In this document: positions 26,063 to 35,861 of the stretch, piece after piece
How the letters are laid out: every line of letters starts with the position of its first letter
Numbering within the stretch: position 1 is the stretch's first letter
DNA from: Planctomycetia bacterium
GTDB lineage: Bacteria; Planctomycetota; Planctomycetia; Pirellulales; UBA1268
Length of the DNA stretch: 45,460 nt
Direction of reading: 5' to 3'
Assembly: GCA_026401075.1 (NCBI GenBank)
Contig: JAPLNQ010000251.1
Location: 1 to 45,460, forward strand
The notes under the pieces: model-generated
The model's input: the letters and a program-made list of their open reading frames with translations, nothing else
What the model was told of the DNA's origin: nothing
Databases searched by the model: none
Made by a program: the position numbers and the translations under genes

Positions 26063-27808
26063 TTACCGCCCCGTGAAGGCCGCGGGGTCGTCGAGCACGA
26101 AGAGGTGGCCGTGGTCGGCGGTCACGATCACGACCGAGTCGTTCCAGGCGTCGTGCCGCTCGATCCACTTCACCACCGCCTGAAACGCCGCGTCGCCGCT
26201 CTTCACCGCGCCGATCGCCGAGTCGATGTCGTTGGCGTGCGAAGCCCAGTCGACGTCGCCCGCCTCCACCATCAGCCAGAAGTTGCCCCGGCTGTGCAAG
26301 ACGTCGAGCGCCGCGCGGGTCATGTCGGCCAGCGTCGGATTCTCGCTGAGATCGGCCTCTGAATAGGGTTTCAGTGGGCAGTATTTCTTGCGGAGCCGGT
26401 CGGCCGACGCCTGCTGCTCGGGCCGGCAGCCGACGGGATCGAAATCGCCGTCGGCCGTCTGGTAGGGCAGATTGCCCTCGGTCACGCCGAACAGGCCAAA
26501 GAGCCGCAGCTTCCGCTGAATGGCGTCCTCGGCCGCGACGGCCAGCACCTCGTCACCGGCCTGGGCGAAGGTGCGAAGGGCGAGCCGGTAGCGGCCCCCT
26601 TTCCGCGCGTCGATCGCGGCGAGCGTCGAGTCGGCCACGTATTTTCCACCCGGCTCGAAGTTGGCCCCCTGATCCTTGTCGCTCTCCCGGTCTCCCCGCA
26701 CTCCAAAGCCCGCACCGATCAACACGTCGAGCCCAGCAAGCGGCTCGGTGCGGTGGGCGATCGAAGGCTGGCCGAGCATGTCACGGGCGATGTCCTGGTA
26801 GTCGTCCCGCGTGACGTTGTTGGCATAACTGCAGGCAGGCGTGGCATGCGACACCGGCACGCTGGTCACAGCGCCCACGGCATAGCCCCGAGCCTGGAGC
26901 TTGCGGGCGATCGGTTCGAGATGGCGGCCCGTCGTGTCGACGTTGATAGCGTCGTTGTAGGTCTTGCGACCTGAGCACAGCGATGTCGCGGAGGCGGCCG
27001 AGTCGGTGACGGCATGTGGCCGGCTGCGGTCGCGGCCGATCAGGTAGCGGTAGTCCGGCAGCGGCGCCCAGGGGCTCTGGCCACCGCGGCGATGGTCGTA
27101 GCCGCCCGGCGTCTCGCCGCCGGGATTCTTCACGGCCTGGGCATCGACATCGACCTTCGTGCCGTCGTTGGCCGGGCTTGTGACACAAAAACCAAAATCG
27201 GTCGGCGCACCGCGGTAGTCCTGAAACCCGAGGCCTGCGCCGCGGCCGGAGTCGTAGGCCACCTTGCCTTGCGCGGCGATCGCGGCCGTCCGCGTGGTCG
27301 TCCAGTCCATGCCGTCAAAGACCACCAGCACGATGTATTTCTTGCCGGCCTCGGCCGCCATCAGTTGGAGCCTGTGGATGTCGGTCTGATCGAAGTAGTC
27401 AGCCTCCGGATTGAGCGTGTCGTCGGGCAGCCGGCCGTAGAGGCTCGTCAGCCGTGCGGCATCGCGGTAGGCACTGTTTGGGCCCGCCACACCGTCGAGC
27501 AGCGTGCCGAACGTGTAGACCGGGATCAGCCGGTTGGAATGGTTGGACCACGAAATGAAGCGGCCAGACTGATCGCCCCAGTGTCCCCACGCGGCCTTCC
27601 CCGTCGCCTCGGCCTCGGCCTCGATCGCCCGGATTGGATCGGCGGCCGAGGCGGGAGCCGCCGGGGCCGCGGGCGGCTGGCCCACCGAGGGCGCTGCTAC
27701 CAGTGTCAGCCCCGCCAGCATCGCCAGCGCAAGAACTGCGCACCACTGCCGCCACACTGGGCCATGTGGCCCCTGCCCATCATTTGTTGTCGTGATCATG
27801 AATGTCAT
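26063..27808 (-). CDS. Alkaline phosphatase family protein, exported
   Basis: 581 aa from the ATG at 27808; the ORF-track start is a TTG 36 bases earlier, and an ATG at 27799 is also possible. A signal peptide core is at about 20-40 (VLALAMLAGLTLVAAP). The phosphatase fold is clear: VVFDGMDW near 165 (metal ligand Asp), VTDSAASATSLCSG near 270 (the nucleophilic Ser of the alkaline phosphatase D-S-A motif), EAGDVDWASHAND near 505, and VTADHGHLF near 560. The family removes phosphate from monoesters in the periplasm and binds two zinc and one magnesium ion. It is divergent from ppc, separated by the repeat array. The protein ends soon after the last metal motif, which is slightly short for the family. 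Confidence 0.87.
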   Translation of the reverse strand: MTFMITTTNDGQGPHGPVWRQWCAVLALAMLAGLTLVAAPSVGQPPAAPAAPASAADPIRAIEAEAEATGKAAWGHWGDQSGRFISWSNHSNRLIPVYTFGTLLDGVAGPNSAYRDAARLTSLYGRLPDDTLNPEADYFDQTDIHRLQLMAAEAGKKYIVLVVFDGMDWTTTRTAAIAAQGKVAYDSGRGAGLGFQDYRGAPTDFGFCVTSPANDGTKVDVDAQAVKNPGGETPGGYDHRRGGQSPWAPLPDYRYLIGRDRSRPHAVTDSAASATSLCSGRKTYNDAINVDTTGRHLEPIARKLQARGYAVGAVTSVPVSHATPACSYANNVTRDDYQDIARDMLGQPSIAHRTEPLAGLDVLIGAGFGVRGDRESDKDQGANFEPGGKYVADSTLAAIDARKGGRYRLALRTFAQAGDEVLAVAAEDAIQRKLRLFGLFGVTEGNLPYQTADGDFDPVGCRPEQQASADRLRKKYCPLKPYSEADLSENPTLADMTRAALDVLHSRGNFWLMVEAGDVDWASHANDIDSAIGAVKSGDAAFQAVVKWIERHDAWNDSVVIVTADHGHLFVLDDPAAFTGR

Positions 27809-27897
27809 GATAACCGCACAAAACCATGTTCTGTTCCCACCCAAGATTTTTTAAGGCGGTCCCGGCGCATCATTTGCAGTCCTGTTCGGCACGGGAT

Positions 27898-28060
27898 GTC
27901 CCCTCCCCCTGTGGCGGCAAGTTTTCAACTTGTCCGTTGTCCCCTCCCCCGTGGCGGCAAGTTTTCAACTTGTCCGTTGTCCCCTCCCCCTGTGGCGGCA
28001 AGTTTTCAACTTGTCCGTGTTCCCGGCATCGATTCCACAAGTTAAAAACTCGTGGCCACG
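27898..28060. repeat. Repeat locus A: three direct 40-41-bp palindromic units plus one inverted unit
   Basis: Units of the type GTCCCCTCCCCC(T)GTGGCGGCAAGTTTTCAACTTGTCCGTT start at 27898, 27939 and 27979. Each contains the palindrome CAAGTTTTCAACTTG. An inverted unit, CCACAAGTTAAAAACTCGTGGCCAC, follows at 28035-28059. Related copies are found at about 30990-31085 and 32495-32600. The upstream part TTCGGCACGGGA (about 27885) also belongs to the element, because locus C has it in inverted order. Confidence 0.85.
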
Positions 28061-28142
28061 CGTCGAACTCCTTCGGTCTCGTCCTTCATGCCGAGACAAC
28101 CTCAACTCCCCTCTCCCACTCCCCACATAAAAAGGCTCTTCC

Positions 28143-30920
28143 GTGGCCAACGACGATCTGCTGCGTCGCGACGTCCGCCTGCTCGGCGACATGCTCGGCG
28201 CCGTGATCGTGGAATTGGCCGGCCAGGATTCGTTTGCCCTGGTGGAGGAAGTTCGCGGCCTTGCCCGCGACCGCCGCGCCGGCCGGCACGATGCCGAACG
28301 GGCGCTCGCGGCAAAGATCGAATCGCTCGACACCGCCCAGGCGGAGTGCGTCGCCCGCGCCTTCAGCATCTATTTCGACCTGGTCAACATCGCTGAGGAT
28401 CGGCAGCGTGTCCGCGTGCTCCGTGAACGCGAGCGGGAGCGGTCACCACAGCCGATCGGCGAGTCGTTGGCCGCGGGCATCGCCGAACTCAAGTCGCTCG
28501 GTCTCTCCGCCGCCGATGTGCAGCAGGCGCTCGACCGTCTCTCGATCGAACTCGTCTTCACGGCCCATCCCAGCGAGGCCAAGCGACGCTCGATCCGGGC
28601 GAAGCTGCGGCGGATGCGGCACAGCCTGCAGGAACTCGACCGCAGCGACCTCCTGCCCCGGGAACGCTCACGGCACGAAAGCGACCTGCACAGCGAACTC
28701 GACGTGCTCTGGCAGACGGAGTTTCTCAGGCCCACGCGGCCGACCGTGCTCGACGAGGTGGAACGCGGCCTGTCGATCATGCCACGGCTGTGGGAGGCGG
28801 TGCCGCAGGTGCATGCCTCGCTCCGCAGCGGCCTTGCAGCATGCTATCCAGGGGAGTCGTTCCACATCCCTCCATTCCTGACGTTCGGATCGTGGATGGG
28901 GGGCGATCGCGACGGCAATCCGTTTGTCACCGCAGATGTCACGGAACGCACGCTCTTGTGGCTGCGGGCCGCGGCGATCGACCGCCATCTCGACTGGTGC
29001 GACCGCCTCCACGACCTGCTCACGATCTCGCTCCATGCCGCCCGGGGCGCCGGCCCGTTGGTCGAGCGACTCGACGCCCTCGCCACGGCGTGGCCCGATC
29101 TGGCCGCTGCCCTCGAACCGCCCGCCCCGCACGAGACCTACCGCCGCTGGCTCCGCATGATCCGCTTCCGGCTGGAGCGGTCCCACACCGCGAGCCTCGC
29201 CGAGCCTGCGGCAGACGCTGCCTATGCGTCGGGAGGCGAACTGGAGGCCGACGTCGCCCTGCTCGTCGATTCGTTAGGCCACGACCACGGCCTCGCCGAC
29301 CAGTCCCCCGCCACGCACTGGCTCGACCTTGTGCGAACCTTCGGCCTCCACATGACGCGACTCGACGTGCGGCAGGATGCCCGCGCCTACGGCGACATCA
29401 TGGGGGAGATCCTCGCAGCCGCGGGCCGCGTGGCAGACACAGCCACCTACTCCGCGCTCGACGAGCCGGCCCGCCGTGCTCTGCTCGTTGACTCGATGCC
29501 CAACGCGGGCAGCCAACCGAATGCCAGCGACAGCGACATCCGCAACGACATCCCCAGCACAGGCCTGACTCCACTGACCGACGACACGCTGCGTCTCTTC
29601 GAGGTGCTCCACCGGGCGGTGGCGCGGTTCGGCCCGGAGTGCATCGGCACAGCGATCATCAGTCTTACCCGCAGCCCGGCCGACGTGCTCGCAGTGCTCT
29701 GGCTGTGGCGGTGGGCACGCGCGCGGGCAACCGCCCGCGGCGAAGCGGTCGCGGCCAGCGACATCGACATCTCGCCCCTCTTCGAGAAGATCAACGACCT
29801 CACCCACGCCCACGACACGCTCTCCGCGATCCTCGACGAGCCCTCTTACCGCGAGCATGTGGCCGGCCGGGGCAACCGGCAGATCGTGATGGTCGGCTAC
29901 TCCGACAGCACGAAGGACGGCGGCTACCTGGCGGCCTGCTGCGGCCTCCAGGCGGCGCAGGGCAATCTCCACGCCGCAGCCGCGGCCCGCGGCGTGAGCC
30001 TCACCTTCTTTCACGGCCGGGGCGGATCGCTCGGCCGCGGCGGCGGGCCGGCCGCGCGGGGCATCCTCTCGCTGCCGCCCGAGACGCTCGACGGCAGCCT
30101 CCGCCTCACCGAGCAGGGAGAAGTGCTCGCCGAGCGGTACGACGACACCGAGGTCGCCTGTCGGCATCTGGAGCAGGTATCGTGGGCCACGCTGGTGGCA
30201 TCGAGCGTGCGTCGGAGCGAGCCCCGCCGAGAGTGGACCGACGTCGCCGACCGGATGGCCGAACGCTCGTGGACCGTCTACCGCGAACTCGTCGATCAGC
30301 CGGGCTTCATCCGCTATTTCTCGGAAACGACCCCGATCGACGACATCGAAACCCTGCCGATCGCGTCGCGGCCCTCCCGCCGCCGCGGCGAGCGCACGCT
30401 CGACGACCTCCGCGCCATCCCCTGGGTGTTTGCCTGGACACAGAGCCGCTGCATGATCCCGGCCTGGTACGGCCTCGGCACGGCGCTGGTGGAAGTGAAA
30501 TACGACGACCGCCATGCCTGGCAGAACGTCTGCGACATGTATCGGCAGTGGCCGTTCTTTCAGGCCACGATCGACAACGCCACGCTGGCTCTCGCCAAGG
30601 CCGACATGTACATCGCGCAGCGGTACTCGGAACTCGTCGACGATGCCGACATCCGCCGCCCGATCTGGCAGCGAATCGCCGCGGAGCGTGACCGCACGAG
30701 GCAGGCGATCCTCGACATCGTCGGCGGCGGCGAACTCCTCGCCACCACGCCCTGGTTCCAACGGTCTATAGAAGCACGCAATCCATATATCGATCCGCTC
30801 AACCTCATCCAGATCGAGTTCATGCGCCGCCGCCGACAGCGGCCCGACGACGAGTCGCTCCGCGATCTCCTCCGGCTCTGCGTGCAGGGCATCGCCGCCG
30901 GCATGCGCACGACCGGGTAG
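28143..30920 (+). CDS. ppc: Phosphoenolpyruvate carboxylase
   Basis: 925 aa from a GTG start, full length. It converts phosphoenolpyruvate and bicarbonate to oxaloacetate, refilling the TCA cycle. The catalytic histidine is H142 in VFTAHPSEAKRRS (Ser replaces the common Thr). GSWMGGDRDGNPFVT is near 249 and GYSDSTKDGGYLAA near 585. The flexible glycine loop FFHGRGGSLGRGGGPAARG is near 620, and the C-terminal DPLNLIQIEFMRRRR carries residues of the allosteric/inhibitor site. The usual C-terminal NG is replaced by MRTTG. No strong ribosome site precedes the GTG. Repeat locus A lies upstream and locus C directly after the TAG stop. Phosphofructokinase follows, so two glycolytic/anaplerotic enzymes are neighbours. 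Confidence 0.95.
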   Translation: MANDDLLRRDVRLLGDMLGAVIVELAGQDSFALVEEVRGLARDRRAGRHDAERALAAKIESLDTAQAECVARAFSIYFDLVNIAEDRQRVRVLRERERERSPQPIGESLAAGIAELKSLGLSAADVQQALDRLSIELVFTAHPSEAKRRSIRAKLRRMRHSLQELDRSDLLPRERSRHESDLHSELDVLWQTEFLRPTRPTVLDEVERGLSIMPRLWEAVPQVHASLRSGLAACYPGESFHIPPFLTFGSWMGGDRDGNPFVTADVTERTLLWLRAAAIDRHLDWCDRLHDLLTISLHAARGAGPLVERLDALATAWPDLAAALEPPAPHETYRRWLRMIRFRLERSHTASLAEPAADAAYASGGELEADVALLVDSLGHDHGLADQSPATHWLDLVRTFGLHMTRLDVRQDARAYGDIMGEILAAAGRVADTATYSALDEPARRALLVDSMPNAGSQPNASDSDIRNDIPSTGLTPLTDDTLRLFEVLHRAVARFGPECIGTAIISLTRSPADVLAVLWLWRWARARATARGEAVAASDIDISPLFEKINDLTHAHDTLSAILDEPSYREHVAGRGNRQIVMVGYSDSTKDGGYLAACCGLQAAQGNLHAAAAARGVSLTFFHGRGGSLGRGGGPAARGILSLPPETLDGSLRLTEQGEVLAERYDDTEVACRHLEQVSWATLVASSVRRSEPRREWTDVADRMAERSWTVYRELVDQPGFIRYFSETTPIDDIETLPIASRPSRRRGERTLDDLRAIPWVFAWTQSRCMIPAWYGLGTALVEVKYDDRHAWQNVCDMYRQWPFFQATIDNATLALAKADMYIAQRYSELVDDADIRRPIWQRIAAERDRTRQAILDIVGGGELLATTPWFQRSIEARNPYIDPLNLIQIEFMRRRRQRPDDESLRDLLRLCVQGIAAGMRTTG

Positions 30921-30964
30921 CTTATTTCACGCGAAACACGAACTCGTTCAATGCTGTGCTGTGC

Positions 30965-31090
30965 GACAAGTGCCGTGCTTTCACCCGTGGCAACAAGATT
31001 GCAGCTTGTTGGGCTCGGGGCCGCATTCGGCAAGTTGAAAACTCGCCGCCACGGGGAGGGTACTTCCCGTGCCGAATAGGAATGGACTTC
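30965..31090. repeat. Repeat locus C: inverted pair of the GTGGC-AAGTTTTCAACTTG element
   Basis: CCCGTGGCAACAAGATTGCAGCTTGTTG near 30992 faces GGCAAGTTGAAAACTCGCCGCCACGGGG near 31030. The following bases, up to TTCCCGTGCCGAATAGGAATGG, are the reverse complement of the left end of locus A. The element lies between the ppc stop and the pfk start. Confidence 0.75.
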
Positions 31091-31167
31091 GTTTCTTTTC
31101 TCCTGGCCGGCCGCCCCGGCGGTGAACAACCCACGACCTCCCCTCCCACGACCTCCGGGACACACCT

Positions 31168-32490
31168 GTGACCACCGCCGCCGATCTCGTCGTGAAAACG
31201 CTCGGCCCCTGCCGGATCGACTCGCCACTCAAGCCGATGCTCGAATCCCGCCGCACCACCGTGCACTACGTCGGCGAGGACGACCGCGTGCTCTTCCACG
31301 ACACGCTGAGCCTCGTGCGGGAGAGCGGCTGCACGCTCGATTCCCTCCCCGGATTCGAGCCGGCCGGCCCGCGGCGCAAGATCTTCTTCGACGCCTCCAA
31401 GATGCGGGTCGGCATCGTCACCTGCGGCGGACTCTGCCCGGGCATCAACGACGTGATCCGCGGCATCGTCATGGAACTCACGTTTCACTACGGCGTGAAG
31501 AAGATCCACGGCTTCCGCAACGGCTACCAGGGATTTGTGGCGAAGTATGGCCACGACGTGGTCGAACTCACGCCGAGCGTGGTCAGCAATATCGACGAGG
31601 ATGGCGGCACGATCCTGGGCACGTCGCGGGGCGGACAGGATCCGGAGGAGATCGTCGACTGCCTCGAGCGGATGAACATAAGCTCGCTGTTCGTGATCGG
31701 CGGCGACGGCACGCTGCGGGGCGCGATGCAGATCGCGGCAGCGGTCGCGGCCCGTGACACCAAGATCGCCGTCGTCGGCATTCCCAAGACGATCGACAAC
31801 GACATCCCCTTCATCGACCAGAGCTTCGGGTTTCAGACAGCCTTCGGCGAGGCGACGAAGGCGATCCAGTCGGCTCATGTCGAGGCAAAGGCGTCGCCCA
31901 ACGGCGTGGGCCTCGTGAAGCTGATGGGCCGCCATTCCGGCTTCATCGCCTGCTATGCGTCGCTCGCCGAGCCCGACGCCAACTATGTGCTGATCCCGGA
32001 GGTGCCCTTTCAGTTGGACGGTCCGCACGGTCTGCTCGACCACCTGCTCGACCGGGTCAAGCGGAGCGGCCATGCCGTGATCGTGGCGGCGGAGGGAGCC
32101 GGGCAGGATCTGATCGAGCAGTCCGCCGAGGGGCACGACGCCTCGGGCAACCGTAGGCTGCAGGACGTGGGGCTCTTGCTCAAGGCCCGGATCGCCGACC
32201 ACTTCGCGGCGGCAGGCGTGGAACTGAACCTCAAGTACATCGACCCCAGCTATCTGATCCGCAGTGTGCGGGCCAATCCATACGACAGTGTCTATTGCCT
32301 CCGGCTCGCGCAGAACGCCGTGCATGCGGCGATGGCGGGCCGCACGGAGATGGTGGTGGGCCGCTGGCACGGCCGGTTTGTCCACATCCCGATTCCGCTG
32401 GCGGTGAGCCACCGCAACCAAGTGGCCCCCGACGGCGACCTCTGGCTCTCGGTGCTCGAGGCCACCGGCCAGCCCCGGTCGTTCGAGTAG
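31168..32490 (+). CDS. 6-phosphofructokinase (PfkA superfamily)
   Basis: 440 aa from GTG, longer than the 320-residue E. coli enzyme and similar to the long plant/spirochaete-type group. It phosphorylates fructose 6-phosphate in glycolysis. Motifs: VGIVTCGGLCPGINDVIRG near 80 (phosphate-donor loop), GTSRGGQDPEE near 152, IGGDGTLRGA near 177, PKTIDNDIPFIDQSFGF near 206 with the catalytic Asp, and LMGRHSGFIA near 251 for substrate binding. Gly in GGDGT is the residue expected for ATP users, while Lys in PKTIDND is found in pyrophosphate enzymes and in the plant/trypanosomatid-like ATP enzymes. ATP is the more likely donor, with some doubt. Repeat locus C is upstream and locus B follows the TAG stop. 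Confidence 0.88.
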   Translation: MTTAADLVVKTLGPCRIDSPLKPMLESRRTTVHYVGEDDRVLFHDTLSLVRESGCTLDSLPGFEPAGPRRKIFFDASKMRVGIVTCGGLCPGINDVIRGIVMELTFHYGVKKIHGFRNGYQGFVAKYGHDVVELTPSVVSNIDEDGGTILGTSRGGQDPEEIVDCLERMNISSLFVIGGDGTLRGAMQIAAAVAARDTKIAVVGIPKTIDNDIPFIDQSFGFQTAFGEATKAIQSAHVEAKASPNGVGLVKLMGRHSGFIACYASLAEPDANYVLIPEVPFQLDGPHGLLDHLLDRVKRSGHAVIVAAEGAGQDLIEQSAEGHDASGNRRLQDVGLLLKARIADHFAAAGVELNLKYIDPSYLIRSVRANPYDSVYCLRLAQNAVHAAMAGRTEMVVGRWHGRFVHIPIPLAVSHRNQVAPDGDLWLSVLEATGQPRSFE

Positions 32491-32494
32491 GCCC

Positions 32495-32600
32495 TTTCCC
32501 CCGTGGCGGCAAGTTTTCAACTTGTCCGTTGTCCCCGCCATCGATTCCACAAGTTAAAAACTTGTGGCCACGGGTCGAACTCCTTCGTGCGAGACAGCCT
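32495..32600. repeat. Repeat locus B: direct unit plus inverted unit
   Basis: CCCCCGTGGCGGCAAGTTTTCAACTTG... begins 5 bases after the pfk stop. CCACAAGTTAAAAACTTGTGGCCAC follows at about 32547-32571, then GTCGAACTCCTTCG. The 85-base block is nearly identical to the right part of locus A, and weaker similarity continues (GAGACA-CCTCAA). Confidence 0.85.
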
Positions 32601-32735
32601 CAAACCCTCTCCCCCCGGGAAATGCACTGGGCCGCAGCTCTTTTTGACCCCATGGGCGGTCATGCGCCGCTTGCCGGTTGCGCCGCCATGCGAGATGCTC
32701 TTGGTGGCGGTTACGCCATCCCCAGGAGTCGAACG

Positions 32736-35700
32736 ATGCCGACATGCCCCGCGCCCGTCCTAAGATTCGTCCTCCTCATCGCGACGATAGGCAGCGCCTT
32801 CTGCAGCGTGACCGCAGCCGCAGCCGACTGGCCGCAGTGGCGGGGTCCCGACGGCCAGGGCCATGCCGCCGCGGCCCAAGACCTGCCGGTGACGTGGAGC
32901 GAAACTGAAAACATCGCCTGGAAGACGCCGCTCCCCGGCCGGGGCTGGTCGTCGCCGGTGATCGATGGCAGCCAGATCTGGATGACCACGGCGATCGAAA
33001 CGGGGATCTCGGAAGAGGAAAAGAAGAAACGCCTCGAGGGCGTCAAGCCGAGTCAGCCGCTCAATGTGTCGGGACCGGTGGCGCTGCATGCCCTCTGCAT
33101 CGACCGCGACTCGGGAAAACTCCTGCACAACATCGAACTGATGGTCGTCGCCGACCCACAGCCGATCCACTCACTCAACTCCTACGCCTCCCCCTCGCCG
33201 GTTCTCGCCGCCGGCCGGCTCTACTGCCACTTCGGCGGCTTTGGCACCGCATGCGTCGACACCACCACGGCGAAGGTCGTCTGGAAAAACCGTGACCAAC
33301 GGCTCAACCACGAGAACGGCCCCGGCAGCACTCCCCTGCTCTGGCATGACACGCTGATCTTCCACTGCGATGGCAGCGACACGCAGTCGATCGTCGCGCT
33401 CGACGCGGCCACCGGGGCGCTGGCCTGGAAGACGCCCCGCAGCGGCGAACTCCGCAGCGACCCCCAGCTCAAGAAGGCCTACGGTACGCCGATGGTGCTC
33501 ACCCTTGGCGGGCGGGACGTGCTCGTCTCGCCGGCGGCCGACTGGCTCTACGGCTACGACCCAGCCACGGGGAAGGAACTCTGGAAGATGAGCTACGGCG
33601 TGCTCGGCTTCTCGATCGTGCCGCGACCCGTCACGGCCCACGGGATGCTCTACATCAGCACGAGCTTCATGCAGCCCGAACTGCTCGCCATGAAGCTCGG
33701 CAACGCCGCGGCCGCCCCCACGATCGCCTGGCGGGAGAAGAAGGGCGCGCCGCAAATGCCCTCGCCGCTCGTGGTCGGGGACGAGCTCTACATGGTCAGC
33801 GACAAGGGCGTGGCCACCTGCCTCGATGCGAAGACCGGCGATGCAGTCTGGACAGAACGGCTCGGCGGCAATTTTGCGTCGTCGCCGCTCTACGCCGACA
33901 GCCGGATCTACGTGTGCAACCGGGATGGCGCGACGTTCGTGATCAAGCCCGGCCGTACCTTCACCCTCGAGGCGACGAACCACCTCGAGGGCCAGATCAT
34001 GGCCACGCCCGCGGCGCTCGACCGGTCGATCTACCTCCGCACCGACAAGGCGATCTACCGGATCGAGAAGCGGCAGCCACCGGCCGCCGCCAGCACACGG
34101 CCTCCCGTAACGGCTCGTGCCGTGGCCTTCCAGGCTCCGGCGGCAGCGACGCCCCCGGCACCGACTCCCGCGGCACCGACTCCCCCGACGCTTGCCGCCA
34201 CAGCCGCCGCGCCCAAGGGCGAGGTGTTTTCCTTCAGGTTCGACACGAGCAAGATCTATCCGGGCACGGCCCGGGAGGTTTCGGTCTACGTGCCGAAGCA
34301 GTACGACGGCACGACCCCCGCCTGCGTGCACGTCAACCAGGACGGCATCCAGTTCAACGCGCCCGACGTCCTCGACCGGCTGATCGCCGAGAAGCAGATC
34401 CCGGTGATGATCGGCGTCTTCGTGAAGCCAGGAGTCGTGCCCGCCACCAGGGAGGGAGCGCTCGACCGGTTCAACCGGAGCTTCGAATACGACGGCCTCG
34501 GCCCCGACTACGCCCGCTTTCTCCTGGAGGAAATCCTGCCCGCCGTCGAGACGAAGAAAACCGCCGACGGGCGGGCCATCGTGCTCTCGAAGAGTGGCAA
34601 CGACCGCTCGATCGGCGGCACCTCCAGCGGTGCGATCGCGGCCTTCACGGCGGCCTGGGAACGGCCCGACGCCTTTTCACGGGTCTATAGTGGCATCGGC
34701 ACGTATGTCGGCCTCCGGGGCGGCCATGCCTATTCGACGCTCATCCGCAAGGTCGAGCCGAAGCCGCTGCGGATCTTTCTGGAGGACGGCTCGAACGACC
34801 TCAACATCTACGGTGGCGACTGGTGGATGGCCAATCAGGCCATGCAGCGGTCGCTCGAATTCGCCGGGTATGACGTGCGGCATGCGTGGGGTGACGGAGC
34901 TCATAACGGCAAGCACGCCACGGAGCTGTTTCCAGAAACGTTTGCCTGGCTGTGGCGCGAATGGCCGAAGCCGGTGACCGCAGGACTGGGCAGCCCGCAA
35001 CTTCAGGAGATCCTCGTTCCGGGCGAGAACTGGCGGCTCGTCGGCGAGGGCTACAAGTTCACCGAGGGCCCCGCGGCCAACGCCAAGGGCGAACTCTTCT
35101 TCAACGACGTGGGCGATGGGAAGACCTACCGTGTCACGCCCGACTGGAAGCCGGAGATCTGGCTCGCCGATTCGCACAAGGGTGATGGACAGAACTTCGC
35201 TCCCGACGGCCGGCTCGTGGCAGCCAGTGGCGGCGACACGGCGATCCTCGCCTGGGACGCGGCGAAGCAGCCGACGACGCTCGCGCAGGGATGGCGGGGC
35301 AACGACGTGGTCGTGAATGCCGCCGGCGTGGTCTACGTCACGGAGCCCGGCTGGGATGGAAAGTCGCCAAGCAAGATCCACTGCCTGAAAGCCTCCGACG
35401 GCGGCGCGTTTACCGACACTGTCGTCGATACCGGCCTGAAGTTTTCCAACGGGCTCTGCCTGTCACCCGATCAGAGCCTGCTCTACGTCGCCGACAGCCG
35501 CACCCACTGGGTCTATAGCTACCAGGTGAATGCCGACGGCACGCTCGCCCACAAGCAGCGGTACTATCATCTTCATGTGCCCGACACGGCCGACGAAAGC
35601 GGTGCCGATGGGATGCGAGTCGACCGCGACGGCCGGCTCTGGGTGGCAACGAAGATGGGCATTCAGGTCTGCGATCAGGCGGGCAGGGTCAACTGCATCA

Positions 35701-35861
35701 TCCCCACGCCCAACGGTAAGATCTCGAACCTCTGCTTCGGCGGGCCCGACTTCACGACGCTCCTGGCCACCTGCGGCGACAAGGTCTACGTCCGGAAGGT
35801 GAAGCCGACGGGCGCACCGAATTTTCTCCCGCCTTCCACGCCAGCCAAGCCGAGACTCTGA
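32736..35861 (+). CDS. Exported three-module protein: PQQ-like propeller + esterase + SMP-30/gluconolactonase
   Basis: 1,041 aa from the ATG at 32736 (CCAGGAG upstream; a signal peptide begins here). The ORF-track start at 32295 lies inside pfk and is a shadow. Residues 30-450 form a PQQ-like beta-propeller (DWPQWRGPDGQG; repeated ALDAATGALAWKTP-type blades). A Pro/Ala/Thr linker follows at 450-493. Residues about 495-750 are a Fes-like alpha/beta-hydrolase esterase with the nucleophile in GGTSSGA near 626, a likely acid in EDGSNDLN, and histidine in WGDGAHNGKH. Residues about 760-1030 are an SMP-30/gluconolactonase propeller with probable metal ligands in FTEGP, FSNGLCLSPD and SGADGMRVDRDG. 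It may bind, de-esterify and delactonise sugar or uronate esters outside the cytoplasm; this is inference. The isomerase gene follows after 14 bases. Confidence 0.88.
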   Translation: MPTCPAPVLRFVLLIATIGSAFCSVTAAAADWPQWRGPDGQGHAAAAQDLPVTWSETENIAWKTPLPGRGWSSPVIDGSQIWMTTAIETGISEEEKKKRLEGVKPSQPLNVSGPVALHALCIDRDSGKLLHNIELMVVADPQPIHSLNSYASPSPVLAAGRLYCHFGGFGTACVDTTTAKVVWKNRDQRLNHENGPGSTPLLWHDTLIFHCDGSDTQSIVALDAATGALAWKTPRSGELRSDPQLKKAYGTPMVLTLGGRDVLVSPAADWLYGYDPATGKELWKMSYGVLGFSIVPRPVTAHGMLYISTSFMQPELLAMKLGNAAAAPTIAWREKKGAPQMPSPLVVGDELYMVSDKGVATCLDAKTGDAVWTERLGGNFASSPLYADSRIYVCNRDGATFVIKPGRTFTLEATNHLEGQIMATPAALDRSIYLRTDKAIYRIEKRQPPAAASTRPPVTARAVAFQAPAAATPPAPTPAAPTPPTLAATAAAPKGEVFSFRFDTSKIYPGTAREVSVYVPKQYDGTTPACVHVNQDGIQFNAPDVLDRLIAEKQIPVMIGVFVKPGVVPATREGALDRFNRSFEYDGLGPDYARFLLEEILPAVETKKTADGRAIVLSKSGNDRSIGGTSSGAIAAFTAAWERPDAFSRVYSGIGTYVGLRGGHAYSTLIRKVEPKPLRIFLEDGSNDLNIYGGDWWMANQAMQRSLEFAGYDVRHAWGDGAHNGKHATELFPETFAWLWREWPKPVTAGLGSPQLQEILVPGENWRLVGEGYKFTEGPAANAKGELFFNDVGDGKTYRVTPDWKPEIWLADSHKGDGQNFAPDGRLVAASGGDTAILAWDAAKQPTTLAQGWRGNDVVVNAAGVVYVTEPGWDGKSPSKIHCLKASDGGAFTDTVVDTGLKFSNGLCLSPDQSLLYVADSRTHWVYSYQVNADGTLAHKQRYYHLHVPDTADESGADGMRVDRDGRLWVATKMGIQVCDQAGRVNCIIPTPNGKISNLCFGGPDFTTLLATCGDKVYVRKVKPTGAPNFLPPSTPAKPRL

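Follow-up and report, generated by a model that had tools for sequence, protein, structure and literature searches.

The palindromic repeats that occupy the three gaps around ppc and pfk in the window, the whole stretch of 45,460 nucleotides analyzed here, are very probably REPs of the GTAG/GTGG superfamily. They are arranged mostly as inverted doublets (REPINs), are best read as non-autonomous mobile elements, and are most likely mobilized in trans by a single cognate RAYT (TnpAREP, HUH-Y1) encoded on contig C142 of the same genome. A small non-autonomous mobile element was one of the two options offered by an earlier sequence-only reading of this DNA; it is well supported by hundreds of copies, REPIN anatomy, a REP-flanked cognate RAYT, and congener sites that lack the repeat. 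The best reading is a new genus-level GTGG REP/REPIN family, its newness being judged from a stem search in 117 genomes. What appeared to be a local oddity is hereby placed in a named element class with its likely enzyme identified.

Repeat units around ppc and pfk

The unit GTGGCGGCAAGTTTTCAACTTG has six matches at ≤3 mismatches in the window, all of them within 27911–32571, against a chance expectation of 0.01. Each of the three gaps contains a GTGG-tagged inverted hairpin pair whose members lie 24–25 nt apart, in agreement with the inverted partner about 25 bases away that had been read from the letters. The units and their flanking genes are as follows.

27911–27936, + strand: REP unit A1, GTGG tag plus hairpin CGGCAAGTT(TTC)AACTTGTCCG
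27951–27976, + strand: REP unit A2, direct repeat of A1, spacing 40 nt
27992–28017, + strand: REP unit A3, direct repeat, spacing 41 nt; left half of REPIN A
28035–28059, − strand: REP unit A4, GTGG-CCACGAGTT(TTT)AACTTGTGG, inverted partner; right half of REPIN A
28143–30920, + strand: ppc, phosphoenolpyruvate carboxylase (PF00311), flanking gene outside the element
30987–31011, + strand: REP unit C1, GTGGCAACAAGATTGCAGCTTG, diverged subtype GTGG-CAACAAGAT(TGC)AGCTTGTTG; left half of REPIN C
31028–31052, − strand: REP unit C2, GTGG-CGGCGAGTT(TTC)AACTTGCCG, near-canonical; right half of REPIN C
31168–32490, + strand: pfk, phosphofructokinase (PF00365), flanking gene outside the element
32503–32528, + strand: REP unit B1, canonical; left half of REPIN B
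32547–32571, − strand: REP unit B2, GTGG-CCACAAGTT(TTT)AACTTGTGG; right half of REPIN B

Gap A is divergent, with an alkaline phosphatase gene on one side and ppc on the other. Its units A1, A2, and A3 are identical to one another and equally oriented, which confirms the tripling of the direct unit (27911, 27951, and 27992) noted earlier; these tandem units at 40–41 nt are read as a local amplification of a REP together with its short flank. Gap C, between ppc and pfk, pairs a unit of the diverged subtype with a near-canonical one, and gap B, 3′ of pfk, holds a plain inverted pair. Loci A and B have 96 nt in common at 91.7% identity, which corrects the about 85 near-identical bases described before. 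Locus C, which had been called inverted, is not merely an inverted copy; it forms its own inverted pair, one half of which is the diverged subtype. As had been proposed for these palindromic units, a tagged hairpin folds for every unit of loci A, B, and C. In addition, loci A and B form long end-to-end hairpins, with −38.6 kcal/mol for locus B as RNA. On the + strand at 32736–35861, the window also contains one large ORF that combines a PQQ-type β-propeller with esterase and SMP-30/gluconolactonase-like regions.

Copy number, anatomy, and placement in the genome

The window lies on contig 7 of an assembly of 301 contigs and 4.16 Mb. This genome has 237 perfect copies of the core CAAGTTNNNAACTTG (reversed control, 0), and tagged units at ≤2 mismatches occur 213 + 210 = 423 times (reversed control, 0); at ≤3 mismatches, the number rises to 510, with 2 in the control. 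Because the repeats number several hundred genome-wide, they are not peculiar to the three gaps around ppc and pfk. The sequence-only reading had reserved a simple local duplication for the case of no further copies in the genome and no transcript effect; further copies do exist. A local segmental duplication around ppc and pfk with no mobile history would be in line with the stretch common to loci A and B, but it is at odds with more than 400 genome copies and with a cognate RAYT flanked by repeats. This candidate, already refuted by the copy number, has practically no chance of being correct.

Anatomy and placement were examined in a sample of 0.94 Mb taken in pieces, which contains 188 units in 81 clusters. 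An exact GTGG tag is present in 184 of the 188 units. Adjacent units form 65 inverted pairs with GTGG outermost, 56 of which have a gap of 22–24 nt between the 22-nt units, and the commonest type of cluster, accounting for 42 of 81, is a lone inverted pair whose two outer ends carry GTGG. Direct pairs are mostly spaced by 40–41 nt, as seen in the same sample. The doublets are mostly asymmetric, a CGG-type unit being combined with a CCA-type unit in 41 of 60. Over 86 distinct units, 94% of stem cells are paired, compared with a maximum of 85% in 1000 shuffles, and compensatory changes on both sides of the stem, such as TA/AT and GC/CG/AT, are found. Inverted doublets with outermost GTGG, a near-constant gap, and an end-to-end fold together constitute the anatomy of a REPIN.

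The same features are known from the REP doublets and RAYTs described by Bertels and Rainey in 2011 (PMC3116915), namely inverted doublets that fold as one hairpin, a high copy number, an extragenic position, and a RAYT flanked by the same REP. The present elements differ from them by another stem, by a GTGG instead of a GTAG tag, and by their usually asymmetric CGG-type plus CCA-type doublets. Moreover, doublets are more conserved than singlets in Pseudomonas fluorescens (PMC3116915), whereas singlets are not more degenerate here, with 0.60 mismatches compared with 0.61 in clustered units, a value that comes from only 10 singlets. With the GTAG-tagged REP superfamily (Di Nocera 2013, PMC3733652), the repeats share a four-base tag directly before a stem of 6–9 bp with a 3-nt loop, doublets with outer tags, and a location near gene 3′ ends. 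Members from Planctomycetes/PVC and a GTGG variant (Opitutus terrae GTAG-20) have already been described in this superfamily (PMC3733652). The distinguishing feature is the stem CAAGTT/AACTTG, which among the 117 genomes rises above background in the genus of the window only.

Although genes cover 86% of the sample, 178 of the 188 units are intergenic (binomial p about 1e-139), with genes called by a simple home-made predictor based on codon usage. Convergent gaps hold 34 clusters where 10.5 are expected (about threefold over-representation), and divergent gaps hold 4 where 21.3 are expected (about fivefold under-representation). In codirectional gaps, clusters begin at a median of 33 nt past the upstream stop codon. 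Part of the sample consists of contigs in which REPs had been found beforehand, which makes its density unrepresentative; contigs picked regardless of REPs contain 7 units in 130 kb. GTAG REPs show a similar placement near gene 3′ ends (PMC3733652). For the present family, purifying selection would leave copies near gene ends; the tolerated sites lie mostly just downstream of genes, where an insertion would do the least harm.

The same placement could mean that selection maintains the hairpins as 3′-end RNA structures (terminators, mRNA stabilizers, or pause sites) and that mobility concerns their origin only. Strong enrichment just past stop codons and in convergent gaps fits this explanation, the hairpins are stable as RNA, and such roles of REPs have been discussed (PMC3733652). 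Against it stand several observations. In a test for intrinsic terminators, defined as a G+C-rich hairpin followed by a T run, no REP hairpin in 27700–32800 is followed by a T run and no REP in this range coincides with a terminator-like site. An Rfam search of the repeats gives no match, the orthologous gaps at ppc and pfk are devoid of repeats in those congeners that were compared, and locus A is situated in a divergent gap with no gene end. Selection for 3′-end RNA structures is, therefore, considered unlikely. The second option of the sequence-only reading, a shared regulatory or attenuation structure, has the same missing terminator signature, Rfam family, and congener repeats against it, as well as the occurrence of the repeats at hundreds of places in the genome; a dedicated regulatory role for ppc and pfk is not supported. 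For mobile REPINs, transcribed hairpins may still add 3′-end stability or pausing as a side effect.

The putative RAYT and other Y1 transposases

A search for a REP-associated transposase, proposed along with the mobile element, leads to one matching gene with the same repeat on both flanks. This putative RAYT gene is located at G000:C142:13640-14341 (G000 being the genome of the window) and is bordered by four REP units on the left and five on the right. The flanking clusters, at 964–1139 and 1848–2070 of the excised piece L053 of C142, include a 117-nt block, which is repeated at 97%. REP sequence makes up the final ~20 codons of the gene itself (L053 1831–1896); here the repeat supplies the C-terminal end of the protein.

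The protein passes the NCBIfam model NF047646 (REP_Tyr_transpos) with 82.4 bits at a cut-off of 80, and it remains below the cut-off of Pfam PF01797 with a score of 14.7 at a gathering score of 23. We read the latter value as that of a divergent RAYT, PF01797 being a general IS200-like model and no defining test for RAYTs. A search with Pfam Y1_Tnp at the default threshold returned only two genes flanked by terminal inverted repeats (TIRs); the RAYT emerged after the threshold was relaxed. Its closest solved structure is E. coli TnpAREP (PDB 4ER8; E=8.6e-5), with which it has the HUH, W, and Y---NP motifs in common, so that all three motifs of RAYT/TnpAREP proteins (class 2 TnpA-Y1) are present. 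They read NHVH, WQ, and YVEYNP here, as opposed to DHLH, WE, and YIHYNP, which are typical of subclass 2.2, to which the E. coli protein belongs (PMC6006769). The repeats differ as well, with perfect or nearly perfect palindromes in the present family and bulged REPs in E. coli.

The gene on C142 is the sole full-length match among the matches listed for G000, most of the others probably being translated REPs that hit the C-terminal end of the RAYT. Searching genome contigs with the RAYT yields only distant relatives of 28–46% identity from many phyla. Among 26 relatives from other genera, about 22 have repeated tagged hairpins in their flanks, with stems of their own and mostly with GTAG or GTGG tags. 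No repeated tagged hairpin is seen in the flank examined for 4 of the 26, and three of the others have GGAG or GGGG tags. Coevolution of REPs and RAYTs has been reported for other species (PMC8266576, PMC6006769). The present system represents a clean REP–RAYT pair, with a GTGG tag and an AT-rich stem, outside Proteobacteria.

By analogy to E. coli and other RAYTs, we infer that the repeats transpose. The RAYT would recognize the GTGG tag and the hairpin in single-stranded DNA, its tyrosine would cleave the REP, and the doublet would be copied or inserted at another place.

Two further Y1 transposase genes of the same genome, on contigs C255 and C222, pass Pfam and could in principle have mobilized the repeats instead. 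The first (L016, C255, 1325–2032, + strand) is TIRtron-like and lies between inverted repeats of the AAATGGGGACGGGAGCGAATT type, a similar repeat being found also farther downstream near a nucleotidyltransferase-like ORF. The inverted repeats that flank the second (L017, C222, 1468–2157, + strand) contain GGTGCCTGGCACC. Both, thus, resemble the TIRYT/TIRtron arrangement (Di Nocera 2013) of a Y1 gene between terminal inverted repeats and are not tied to the GTGG REP: neither flank contains one, the terminal inverted repeats at each gene are unrelated to it, and both proteins fall below the NF047646 cut-off. Mobilization by either of these two transposases is, hence, highly improbable.

Distribution within the genus

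In the search of 117 genomes, comprising the own genome and relatives, the pattern is above background solely in the genus of the window, where the genomes contain 423 (own), 17, 53, 2, and 56 units. With such unequal counts, gain and loss of REPINs become directly comparable across sister species. For G002 (53 units) and G004 (56 units), no RAYT was found in assemblies that are 90% and 72% complete, respectively, which makes this absence weak.

At the sites of the window, none of the congeners compared carries repeats (three congeners for gap A, four for gap C, and four for gap B, where G002 aligned on the left side only). Since this holds for all three sites, the copies in the window are, judged from these alignments, recent and lineage-specific. 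The sites compared are not clean insertions: a search for an exact insertion junction or target duplication at the three gaps of the window and at one single REP found none, the gaps themselves having turned over. Of five REP sites on contig 10, one is common to G002 and G003, and the other four show no REP where the flanks are comparable, with a coverage that varies and amounts to 1–2 congeners at some sites.

The RAYT of G000 sits in the gap between msrB-like and argF-like genes. A tentative and rather doubtful extension is that the REPIN population expanded recently within a single lineage of this little-studied genus, the sister species having few or diverged copies, and that the msrB-like/argF-like gap may be a site where Y1 transposases and repeats replace one another. 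In G002, this gap (L051, G002:C69, 1291–1803, + strand) contains a different HUH transposase-like ORF with direct repeats of its own, AAGCCCGAAGCGCCAGCGAGAGGAAACC, and in G001 (L049, G001:C150), an ORF similar to that of G002 adjoins argF.
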